A stretch of 39,224 nt of DNA from an uncultured Erysipelotrichaceae bacterium (lineage in GTDB: Bacteria > Bacillota_I > Bacilli_A > RF39 > UBA660), in assembly GCA_948444795.1 (NCBI GenBank), contig CAOJUX010000010.1, positions 1-39,224 of the forward strand, written 5' to 3'. The notes beneath the pieces were generated by a model. That model was not told the origin of the DNA. It worked only from the letters and a program-made list of their open reading frames with translations, and searched no databases. This document shows, one piece after another, positions 6,682 through 37,450 of this stretch. A program made the position numbers and the translations under genes. Position 1 is the stretch's first letter. Each line of letters opens with the position of its first letter.

Positions 6682-7675
6682 ATGAAAAAATATGAAAAGA
6701 ATAAAAAACTAAAATACACCCTCCTAAGCGTAATAGCCCTAGTCCTAGTACTGGGGGGGGGGTATTTTAGTATATAGAAGTTTTGCATTATTTGAAACAA
6801 GTAAAACATTTAATATACTAGAAGGAAGAGTGCCAAACTTTACCAAAGGAGATATAACTTTAGCAGTACTTGTAGATGGAGAGAAGAAAGAAGAGTTTCC
6901 TGCAAAAGATAGTGGATATCATTTTGTAGGATCAGAATGCACAAATGGTGCAAATGCTTCGTGGAATTCATTGATTTGGAGTGTTAATATTACAAATTTA
7001 AAAAATACAGGTACAACATGTACTTTAAAATTTGAAAAAGGAGAATTAGAGCTTAATTATGGAGATGGATCTTTAAATGAAGTAGAAAATGGTTATAATG
7101 ATAAAATCGCTTTTTATGATATGACAACTAACAATGATATTTCTTTTAATAGTGCAGCATCGAATTATAATGAAGGAAATTATAATAACAATTTTTATTT
7201 GAAAAGTGTTAATGATGGTATACATAGAACATTAGGAACTAAATTGGAAGGACGCTCTAAAATAATAAAAGGAAATAATGAAATTATAATAAATAGAATA
7301 AATAGCTCAACTTCATTAATTTTTATAGAGTTTAGAGGTGGTGGTTCAGGATTTAACTCTATAAGTTCTCTACAATTATATTTAAATAATAATTATGTAT
7401 CTTTAAAACAAGCAGTTGCTAATAAAATGATAAAACCATTAGTATTAATAACAGGAAATAGTTATAATGCAAATACTTCAAAAATAAATGTTTTATCTTT
7501 ATATGATACAGGAAAAGTAACTATTAATACTTTTGGTGATGTGCATATATATTTTATGTTAGAAAACAATGTTACTTTTAATAGAGTTAAATTTATAGCT
7601 GATAATGATTTTGATGAAAATTATGATGGTATAGATGTAAAAGAATATAAAAATACCATAATGTATCTTAAATAG
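6682..7675 (+). pseudogene. Surface-anchored protein gene, frameshifted at a G10 tract (candidate phase-variable, OFF)
   Basis: ATG 6682 has a perfect AGGAGG site and a good promoter. The frame encodes a Lys-rich start and a hydrophobic helix (about residues 11-32), then runs into ten G at 6753-6762. As read, it stops at TAG 6775-6777 after 31 codons. With one G fewer, the helix continues as GGGILVYRSFALFE and joins the downstream frame to TAA at 7675, giving 330 residues. The outer part has a beta-like domain with two Cys (in FVGSECTNG and TGTTCTLKF), then an Asn/Tyr-rich beta region. I recognise no named family. Codons just before the tract (CTC, CTA, GTC, CTG) are unlike the TTA-dominated neighbours, hinting at an imported or conserved signal cassette. 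A permanent mutation or an assembly error are alternatives. Confidence 0.75.
6753..6762 (+). repeat. Homopolymer G10 inside the surface-protein gene
   Basis: Ten consecutive G in a strongly AT-rich genome, exactly at the frame break. G9 would restore the 330-residue reading frame; G10 gives a 31-codon peptide. This is the classic form of a slipped-strand contingency tract. Confidence 0.85.
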
Positions 7676-18718: not shown

Positions 18719-19348
18719 ATGCTAAAAAAAGTATTAATATATGGAGATTCTAATACTTGGGGAGATAATTTTCTAACGGGAAAAAGAATTCCAGATGATA
18801 AGCAATGGGTAAATATTTTAAGAAAAAAATATGATAAAAAAATTTTATTTTTGCAAGAAGGATTGCCTGGAAGATTGGCGGGTAATGAAGAAATTGCAAA
18901 AAAATATAAAAATGGTCAAGACACTTTTATTTCAACATTTAGAACAAATGCTCCAGTGGATATGGTTATTATTTCTTTAGGAACAAATGATCTGCAATTA
19001 AAGTATAATAAAACAAGTGAAGAAGTAATTAATAGTTTGTTATGGTATAAAGAACAATTGGAAGAAAGTTTTAAAGATACAGAAGATAAAGAAAAATATT
19101 TTAATGGGAAAATGCCTAAAATTTTATATATATTACCTATTAATTTTGATTATCAAGTAAATGCCAAAGAAATATTTGACAGAACTTCCGAAAAAAAACG
19201 CCAAGAAATTATTAATTATTTTAAAAAACAAAATATAAATATTATAGCAGATAATCACATGGAATTGTTTGAAGATGGTATTCACTTAAATTATAAAGGG
19301 CATGAGAAAATGGCTAAACTGGTAGAATCGGAGTTAAATTATGAGTAA
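18719..19348 (+). CDS. SGNH/GDSL-family hydrolase
   Basis: A 209-residue esterase/acyl-hydrolase-type protein of the SGNH fold. Block I is GDSNTWG (9-15) with nucleophile S11. The oxyanion Gly lies in GLPGR (about 48-52). Block III is GTND (88-91) with N90, and block V is DGIHLN (186-191) with catalytic D186 and H189. No signal peptide, so it probably acts in the cytoplasm, perhaps on small acyl esters. It is preceded by an attenuated leader and overlaps the acyltransferase gene by 8 nt, suggesting translational coupling. A link to lipid acyl turnover is inferred from this neighbour. Exact substrate unknown. Confidence 0.85.
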   Translation: MLKKVLIYGDSNTWGDNFLTGKRIPDDKQWVNILRKKYDKKILFLQEGLPGRLAGNEEIAKKYKNGQDTFISTFRTNAPVDMVIISLGTNDLQLKYNKTSEEVINSLLWYKEQLEESFKDTEDKEKYFNGKMPKILYILPINFDYQVNAKEIFDRTSEKKRQEIINYFKKQNINIIADNHMELFEDGIHLNYKGHEKMAKLVESELNYE

Positions 19349-20219
19349 ATTAGAAGAACTAGAAAAATTAAGAAAACAATTTAATCTAATAGTTAATGGT
19401 CTAAATAATTATCCAAAAGGCGAAATTAATGTTTTGGTATCAAACCATAATTGTTTAATGGATATTTTTTATTTACCTATGGCAATACCAGAAGAACTAG
19501 TAAGTTTAATTAGTGCTCGTTTAGTGTATAAGAATGAAGATGATCGAAAATATATAGTTAATAAATATTTAAATGCTTTTCCTATAGAAGCTCATGGTGG
19601 CAGGAAGTATACTAAAATGTGTTTAGAACATGCAAGTGAAATTTTACAAAGCGGAAGAAGTGTTAATATATTTCCCGAAGGAGCTTATGTATTAGAAAAT
19701 AATATTTATAAAGGTCATACTGGTGCTAGCAGAATAATATATGATGCTAGAAAAAATATTAGTCAAATTAATTTGGTTCCGGTAAGTATTTCCATTTCAA
19801 AAAAAGAAGATTTGGAGAATTATAAAAACCTTGGGGGGGGGGTAATAGAAATTACAATTTTACCTTCCATTGATTATAAGGAAGCATACTATAACTACAA
19901 TTATGCAAAAAACTATGAAGAAGCAAACGAATTTTTACATATTCCAATTGATATTGCAATGAAAAATATTGCTAATAATTTAAAAATGGCTTATGTGGAT
20001 AATTACATAGAATTAAAACCAAAGGGAAATGTTATGTTTGCAGATGGCTCAGTAGTTGATGTTAATCTTGCTCAACAAAATGAATTTGCTCAAAAATATA
20101 ATTGTGAACTTATGAAAAGAACTAGAGATTATCTAAGCAAAATATTTTGTATTTTAAATAAATTATGTTATATTATACCTATAAGGAGAAATTTATATGA
20201 AATTTGTTATAAAATCTAA
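19341..20219 (+). CDS. PlsC-type acyltransferase with an in-frame G10 tract
   Basis: Glycerolipid acyltransferase family, of which 1-acyl-glycerol-3-phosphate acyltransferase is the best-known member. HX4D is NHNCLMD (H36, D41), FPEG is 111-114, and the VPVSI strand follows near 147. The protein has 292 residues. Ten G at 19833-19842 encode Gly165-167 and the first base of Val168. The frame is open in this copy, but a one-base slip would truncate the last 40% of the protein. After residue 200 there is no clear family match. It overlaps SGNH at its start (8 nt) and the 84-residue gene at its end (23 nt). It has no membrane helix, so it is probably peripheral. The acyl acceptor is not certain. 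Confidence 0.8.
   Translation: MSKLEELEKLRKQFNLIVNGLNNYPKGEINVLVSNHNCLMDIFYLPMAIPEELVSLISARLVYKNEDDRKYIVNKYLNAFPIEAHGGRKYTKMCLEHASEILQSGRSVNIFPEGAYVLENNIYKGHTGASRIIYDARKNISQINLVPVSISISKKEDLENYKNLGGGVIEITILPSIDYKEAYYNYNYAKNYEEANEFLHIPIDIAMKNIANNLKMAYVDNYIELKPKGNVMFADGSVVDVNLAQQNEFAQKYNCELMKRTRDYLSKIFCILNKLCYIIPIRRNLYEICYKI
19833..19842 (+). repeat. Homopolymer G10 inside the acyltransferase gene
   Basis: Ten consecutive G, the same length as the tract at 6753-6762, here in frame. G9 or G11 would shift the frame after residue 165-168. Confidence 0.85.
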
Positions 20220-20451
20220 AAGAAAATTAAAATTTATATCATCATCTTCTAACATATTAAAGCAAAAATATTCTCCTCTTGCCTATGATTTAGGTCCTCG
20301 TGAAGAAGAAGCTACAGAATATCAAAGAGGTGACTATAGTGTTTTAGCATATGACTTTGGCTCCAATATAGCTACTCCTTCAGATTTTAATGATGATGAA
20401 ATGAGTAAAATGTTAGATGAGTATGAAGATAATATAAAACATAAGAGATAA
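20197..20451 (+). CDS. Unknown 84-residue protein with an internal repeat
   Basis: ATG 20197 follows AAGGAG with a good gap, inside the end of the acyltransferase gene. The basic N terminus (KFVIKSKRKLKF) leads to two near-identical phrases, YSPLAYDLG (about 26-34) and YSVLAYDFG (about 48-56), separated by an acidic/polar spacer, and then an acidic helical tail. No family recognised. The repeated phrase looks like a short linear binding motif. A TATATTATA box just upstream may add a promoter. It may be coupled to the acyltransferase above. Confidence 0.6.
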   Translation: MKFVIKSKRKLKFISSSSNILKQKYSPLAYDLGPREEEATEYQRGDYSVLAYDFGSNIATPSDFNDDEMSKMLDEYEDNIKHKR

Positions 20452-36437: not shown

Positions 36438-36444
36438 GGGGGGG
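36438..36444 (+). repeat. G7 run acting as ribosome binding site
   Basis: Seven G, 7 nt upstream of ATG 36452, are the only purine-rich site available. A run of G as Shine-Dalgarno is unusual beside the AGGAGG/GGTGAT sites elsewhere in the window. Confidence 0.6.
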
Positions 36445-36451
36445 ATTTAAT

Positions 36452-37450
36452 ATGAAATATGATAACAAAATAATCTATAATGGAAAAAAGGATAATGCAC
36501 TAACTGTTTTAAAAAACTTAGAGATAAGTGATTCTGGTTATTATAAAAGAAGATTAATGGGAATGAGTGCTCAAGAAGCTTTTGATAGATCTATTAATTT
36601 TTTAAAAAAGCCTAAAAGAAATATAACTGACTTTTCAAAGACTAATCAGATATCTTTAAAAAAAATTTATAATGAAATGGATCAAGGTAAAAGTTTAGAA
36701 GAGATTAAAGATGAAAAAATAGAAGTCTTACATGAAGAAGCTTTATTATTGAATAAATTATATGATGAAGGAATGCCTAAAGAATATAATGATTTATGTA
36801 GTTTTTGCCGTGAGAATAAGTTGAATTATTCAGCTATTCTTTATAGGATGTTAAATAAAGGCCTTACTTTAAGAGAAGCTATAAGTGATATGAAGAAAAA
36901 TTATGTTATAAGATCTACTAAATATTTTATAGAAAATATTCCACTTAGAAGTTTTTGTCAAAAATATCAACTTGATTATACAGAGTTAATAAAATATTAT
37001 AAATCTTCTAATAATCTGGAAGAAGCAATAGAAAGAAGAGTATTTAATCAATCTTTTAGCTATAATTTAGGAAGAAGAGCAAAATGTTTGTGGGATAAAT
37101 TTTTGGATTTTAAAAGTACTTATTCTATTGATGGATTAAGTGAAGAAGAAAAAAATTCATTTGTACTTGCTCTTAATAGAATTAATATTATAAACAGAGA
37201 TATATCATATTATAAATTTTTAAATCGGGAGATGGGTCTGAGTACTAATGAAATTACTATAAGTAATGTTGATGATATTATTTTAAAATTGCTAAGTAGA
37301 GGAAATATACCATTTTCTTTATCTGAATTATATTATATATTTGATTTAAAGAGTGGTCTTATGAGTGATTTTACTTATGATTGTGATAATAATATTTGGG
37401 TTTATAAAAATCCAGAAGTATTATTAACTAAAAAAAATAATCAAGCTTAA
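36452..37450 (+). CDS. Unknown protein with four helical (HTH-like) repeats
   Basis: 332 residues, soluble, highly charged. Four segments share a pattern: a helix with N/D-Y or similar, xx-I/L-Y-x-R-M/L, then a G(L/M/K)(S/T)(L/A)xEA-type turn-helix. They lie near residues 16-48 (YYKRRLMGMSAQEAFDRS), 60-88 (IYNEMDQGKSLEEIKDE), 117-150 (ILYRMLNKGLTLREAISD) and 168-197 (LIKYYKSSNNLEEAIERR). Such units resemble short DNA-recognition helix-turn-helix repeats. No family is recognised. Two Cys in LCSFCRE and one in RSFCQK are in like positions. It is transcribed from a terminator-linked promoter with a G7 ribosome site. Its stop overlaps that of the convergent VanY gene. Confidence 0.6.
   Translation: MKYDNKIIYNGKKDNALTVLKNLEISDSGYYKRRLMGMSAQEAFDRSINFLKKPKRNITDFSKTNQISLKKIYNEMDQGKSLEEIKDEKIEVLHEEALLLNKLYDEGMPKEYNDLCSFCRENKLNYSAILYRMLNKGLTLREAISDMKKNYVIRSTKYFIENIPLRSFCQKYQLDYTELIKYYKSSNNLEEAIERRVFNQSFSYNLGRRAKCLWDKFLDFKSTYSIDGLSEEEKNSFVLALNRINIINRDISYYKFLNREMGLSTNEITISNVDDIILKLLSRGNIPFSLSELYYIFDLKSGLMSDFTYDCDNNIWVYKNPEVLLTKKNNQA

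Follow-up and report, generated by a model that had tools for sequence, protein, structure and literature searches.

Why does an acyltransferase gene in an uncultured gut Erysipelotrichaceae bacterium contain ten consecutive guanines? The stretch of DNA analysed here (the window, 39,224 nucleotides) has a GC content of 25% and holds exactly two G runs of at least eight bases, each a G10, at 6753-6762 and 19833-19842 on the + strand. The second begins with codon 165 of an open reading frame at 19341-20219 (+) and extends to the first base of codon 168, so that, with the preceding Leu, GGG GGG GGG GTA reads Leu-Gly-Gly-Gly-Val and encodes Gly165-167 of a 292-residue protein. This protein matches PF01553 (E 4e-12). 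A sequence-only reading had proposed that an in-frame G10 lies in the ON frame of a PlsC-type acyltransferase gene, and that an equal tract lies in a surface gene; the plsC tract, its frame and the equal tract are confirmed. Matches to G8 numbered six in the window, against a mean of 0.06 in dinucleotide shuffles of it, and the plsC tract, inside a gene and longer than the 8-9 G or C that we took as the minimum for a gene or promoter, is far beyond chance expectation. The tract is not a chance run. Neither is it a product of ordinary codon usage: GGG makes up 5.5% of the glycine codons in the 23 other ORFs of the window, three in a row have a probability of about 2e-4 through codon choice, and 0/10 of the remaining plsC glycines use it.

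The protein itself has the hallmarks of a PlsC-type acyltransferase. The catalytic motifs H36-X4-D41 and F111-P-E-G114 are present, with H36/D41 and F111-G114 unchanged across 13 sequences, and a structure model (pLDDT 83.6) has the known PlsC fold, its best match being Thermotoga PlsC 5kym (E 5.5e-8, TM 0.61 on target). The score against TIGR00530 (1-acyl-sn-glycerol-3-phosphate acyltransferase) was 36.9 bits, under the curated cut-off of 102.95, and hence we assign no substrate. In the model, the tri-glycine falls within a coil (residues 153-168, pLDDT about 66) just ahead of strand 169-173, a place between strands where an insert would be tolerable.

We computed the reading frames for a one-base change in the tract. 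The product has 292 residues at G10, 167 at G9 and 177 at G11, so a single slip turns a full-length protein into a truncated one, close to the break after residue 165 or so that had been anticipated. A slip replaces or removes strand 169-173, the last PlsC core strand, together with the conserved C-terminal part and the invariant residues H200, D204, Y218, K228 and N230. As the HX4D and FPEG motifs survive the slip, the truncated protein would probably, rather than certainly, lose activity. Since the Pfam domain (residues 17-151) ends 5' of the tract, it might keep some activity. The genome encodes a second PF01553 protein, and hence an OFF state of plsC need not be lethal.

We then asked where the tract came from. 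Our homologue set comprised 13 PlsC sequences, 42-64% identical, from metagenome-assembled genomes (MAGs) labelled Bacilli, Tenericutes, Erysipelotrichaceae or Clostridia. Neither the tract nor Gly-Gly-Gly was present at this site in any of the 13: the residues there are Gly-Asp/Asn-Asp/Asn-Val (GDNV, GDDV) or unrelated, which rules out a conserved tri-glycine, one half of the refuting outcome that the sequence-only reading had named (the other half being a tract invariant across isolates). The host protein is one residue longer than its homologues at the tract. With 13 homologues lacking both the run and the motif, the tri-glycine is evidently an acquired insert, and the tract a gain of the host lineage rather than a drifted Gly-Gly-Gly motif. 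Conservation of the tract among orthologues was likewise rejected; one homologue (L043) carries a run of its own elsewhere, near the 3' end of the gene: a G9 at L043:3806-3814, giving 274, 298 or 276 residues for G8, G9 or G10 (the first and last read by hand from the sequence), where slips would alter only the C-terminus. These data bear on a first alternative, that Gly-Gly-Gly is just a loop, neutral or structural, and its codons are GGG by happenstance. The reading frame and the modelled coil would suit such a loop; yet homologues lack Gly-Gly-Gly, GGG is rare among glycine codons and unused by the other ten glycines of plsC, and the same tract occurs at 32 places in the genome, promoters included, which coding cannot explain. 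We regard this alternative as highly improbable.

The 32 places come from the whole host assembly, a MAG of 1.46 Mb in 74 contigs (81% complete, 5.8% contaminated), in which we counted 32 runs of G≥8, 26 of them exactly G10 in the consensus calls of this draft assembly, versus a single G7. This set is not random, because chance would make G7 far commoner than longer runs. The suspicion, raised from two equal tracts, of a genome-wide switching system thus gained strong backing. The only G7 of the genome lies in the window at 36438-36444, at the ribosome-binding-site position of an ORF starting at 36452. Runs were present in 22/22 genomes of the genus (2 to 75 each), and in eight further species of that genus 111/150 listed tracts have a length of exactly ten, again as consensus calls. 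Across the sampled genomes of the wider family, 112/154 have at least one run; in other families of the class (63 genomes), G≥9 is rare, with a median of zero and at most 9. Loss of mismatch repair was ruled out as the cause: MutS and MutL are present in the host and in nearly all sampled genomes of the family, and hence slippage is not boosted by such a loss. The host genome has two full MutL genes (G000:C27:15055 and G000:C38:11048), one of which could be a paralogue or reflect the MAG's contamination. A phase-variable mutL next to mutS was also considered and discarded, the tract in question (G000:C42:5657; L050:2660) being a promoter-spacer G10 directly 3' of mutS, in the arrangement TTGACT-17-TATAAT, that belongs to an unrelated gene of about 220 residues.

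Three placements of the tracts recur: leaders of surface-protein families, promoter spacers and gene interiors. Leader tracts come after about 13-25 codons, in two leader types (KLKYTLL.. and ..NLPT..), and it is from the leader that we infer surface proteins as the products of these genes, whose families matched no Pfam family. The other G10 of the window belongs to this class: it interrupts a gene (6682-7675, +, start at 6682) paralogous to other leader-tract genes; the G10 frame of this gene meets a stop at 6775-6777, so that it is OFF at G10 and would encode 330 residues at G9. In promoter spacers, the arrangement is TTGACA-G9/10-TATAAT, with flanking boxes that share 11-12 of 12 positions with TTGACA/TATAAT and lie mostly 16-20 bp apart (L001, L004, L050, L099, L195). 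Besides plsC, interior tracts were found in genes for Fic proteins (L006, L144), an SLT transglycosylase-like protein (L014), Acyl_transf_3 (L186, L187), Glyco_transf_8 (L186, L204) and NTP-transferase/aminotransferase (L148) proteins, as well as, in a different species of this genus, a CDP-alcohol phosphatidyltransferase (CDP-OH_P_transf, L073; G10). Acyl_transf_3, Glyco_transf_8, Fic and CDP-OH_P_transf proteins are enzymes typical of phase-variable sets.

Some individual tracts deserve mention. A G10 lies in the promoter region of a gene for a prepilin-like protein with the N-methylation motif PF07963 (L026, G000:C23:15610), where the spacing is 15 at G10. In another genus of the family (G193; L112, L114-L117), a promoter TTGCAA-(19 bp with G10)-TATAAT is repeated, and its G8 copy (L116) has 17 bp. 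At L028 (G000:C28:11662), surface-family sequence 3' of the tract meets an unrelated 5' sequence precisely at the G10, through recombination between tracts or as an assembly chimera. Long alternating C and G runs beside a leader tract at a contig end (L101, G018:C87) are probably an assembly artefact.

Tract length differs among near-identical paralogue leaders (G9 in L012 versus G10 in L002-L020; likewise L198 versus L197/L199). These differences, and the promoter tracts, weigh on a second alternative that requires no change in DNA: RNA polymerase or ribosomes could slip on G10 and yield full-length and truncated proteins in constant proportion, as in programmed frameshifting. The sharp G10 length would suit it, and so would the fact that most surface leaders are OFF at G10, a defect that slippage during transcription could overcome; but promoter-spacer tracts cannot operate in this way, paralogous tracts do differ in length, and enzymes at G9 would need rescue too. 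We consider programmed frameshifting unlikely.

A third alternative is that the tract simply marks a mutation-prone accessory gene heading for loss. plsC was found in 0/21 same-genus genomes and in only 3/39 other genomes of the family, and is therefore accessory. This sporadic distribution speaks for decay, as do a broken copy with two stops in a relative (L033) and the loss of the usual stop codon in the host gene, whose C-terminus runs on. Against it, the ORF is intact and keeps all catalytic motifs and invariant alignment columns, and many intact genes of the genus contain tracts of this type, so that decay seems very unlikely to us. The 5' neighbour of plsC is conserved in homologous loci. 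An SGNH/GDSL hydrolase of 209 residues (18719-19348, +) overlaps the 5' end of plsC, and such a hydrolase lies directly 5' of the plsC homologue in 15/16 homologous loci, usually overlapping or a few bases apart; the remaining locus (L033) has broken copies of both. In one of the 15 (L048:2353-3804, from a MAG labelled Clostridia) the two are fused in a single 483-residue ORF. Conservation and fusion of the pair are good evidence that SGNH hydrolase and PlsC act jointly. Pairing with a hydrolase, together with the G10 in the CDP-alcohol phosphatidyltransferase of another species, makes lipid or surface composition, which had been suggested as the target, a plausible one. The other neighbour is an 84-residue ORF (20197-20451, +; family not known) that overlaps the 3' end of plsC by 23 bases. 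The overlap had led the sequence-only reading to propose that a slip could affect this gene as well; the overlap stands, but a direct effect is doubtful because the ORF comes with a strong ribosome-binding site of its own, taaggagaaatttatATG. No tblastn match to it adjoined plsC in relatives, and it probably lies outside the switch.

From the sequence evidence as a whole, we think it very likely that the plsC tract is a contingency (phase-variation) switch operating through slipped-strand mispairing. During replication, the G10 run would gain or lose a base: G10 (and also G7 or G13) would give the full-length acyltransferase, ON, and G9 or G11 a protein that ends at 167 or 177 residues, short of or inside the final strand of the PlsC core, OFF. 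The tract would be one of a genus-wide set with a modal length of 10, spread over surface leaders, promoter spacers and enzyme genes, and each population would contain cells that differ in surface and lipid make-up. PlsC and its overlapping SGNH hydrolase would most likely carry out deacylation and reacylation of a phospholipid or surface glycoconjugate. The tract, its frame, the effect of a slip on that frame, the gain in this lineage, the genome-wide set and the differing lengths among paralogues come directly from the sequences; that cells of a population do switch, that truncation abolishes activity and what the substrate is are the inferred parts of this scheme.

We also looked at the frame in which genes read through the tracts. 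In the first genome set, n = 0 mod 3 (G9) gives the full-length product for 31/32 leader genes, which makes G10 OFF, and n = 1 mod 3 does so for 15/19 other coding tracts, which makes G10 ON (15/16 by hand count in the written prediction, 15/19 by script). This rule was written down as a prediction before ten further genomes were scored, in which 34/40 leaders and 12/15 other tracts fitted it (binomial p 3e-4 for the others; the division into leaders and others was coded with the output for the second set already visible, and reassigning the ambiguous L151 gives 12/16). Leader genes are paralogues, and agreement among them does not represent many independent events. Only 11/72 leader genes are at an ON length, versus 17/34 of the others. 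A tentative reading, which we would put somewhat short of even chances, is that G10 is a set point for tract length around which selection has placed the reading frames, so that the default state is written in frame phase without a dedicated regulator. If so, surface genes would be OFF by default and one deletion short of ON, with few of them expressed in each cell, and enzymes such as PlsC would be ON at G10 and one slip from OFF. With this tract set, one can ask whether frame phase, measured against the preferred tract length, determines default expression.

In the open-licence literature that we searched, we found no report of phase variation in this lineage; within it, the scale of the phenomenon in this family and the frame rule seem unreported. 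Poly-G tracts, up to about 75 per genome, would be a main genetic switch for a large uncultured family of gut Bacilli, and would place a phospholipid-type acyltransferase and its partner hydrolase under their control. Consensus MAGs of these bacteria list as broken many surface genes that are probably just switched off.

The mechanism is well known: textbooks describe slipped-strand phase variation at poly-G tracts in Campylobacter, Helicobacter and Neisseria. In Neisseria porA, a poly-G spacer between the -35 and -10 boxes sets their spacing, a likeness to other loci of the host, while the plsC tract itself is coding. Campylobacter strains have 5-81 phase-variable genes by PhasomeIt, with tract modes of G9 (53%) and G10 (26%) (PMC6321876). 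The host resembles them in its AT-rich genome with tens of poly-G tracts, mostly in ORFs, but belongs to a different phylum, with a mode of G10 (26/32 in the host, 111/150 in other species of the genus), large families of leader-tract paralogues OFF at the modal length, many promoter-spacer tracts, and both MutS and MutL. The ON share in Campylobacter draft genomes is reported to be closer to the neutral expectation (PMC6321876), and the ON/OFF bias of the tracts scored here may differ from it, judged against a published share that was scored separately. The nearest organismal precedent is Ca. Mycoplasma girerdii, an uncultured Mollicutes-type organism whose surface-protein and R-M genes contain simple repeats. 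Its wild type is often OFF, one of its tracts is a G(8), and metagenomic read data showed length variation (PMC5476646); unlike in the host, its repeats are mostly dinucleotides at about 20 loci, with two length-variable homopolymers only. The nearest functional precedent is Helicobacter pylori pldA, where a homopolymer at residues 226-228 separates a full-length ON from a truncated OFF product, ON in 97.5% of isolates (PMC3490997). Both are mid-gene homopolymers in phospholipid acyl-modifying enzymes, although pldA encodes an outer-membrane phospholipase A of a Gram-negative host, unrelated to the PlsC acyltransferase.
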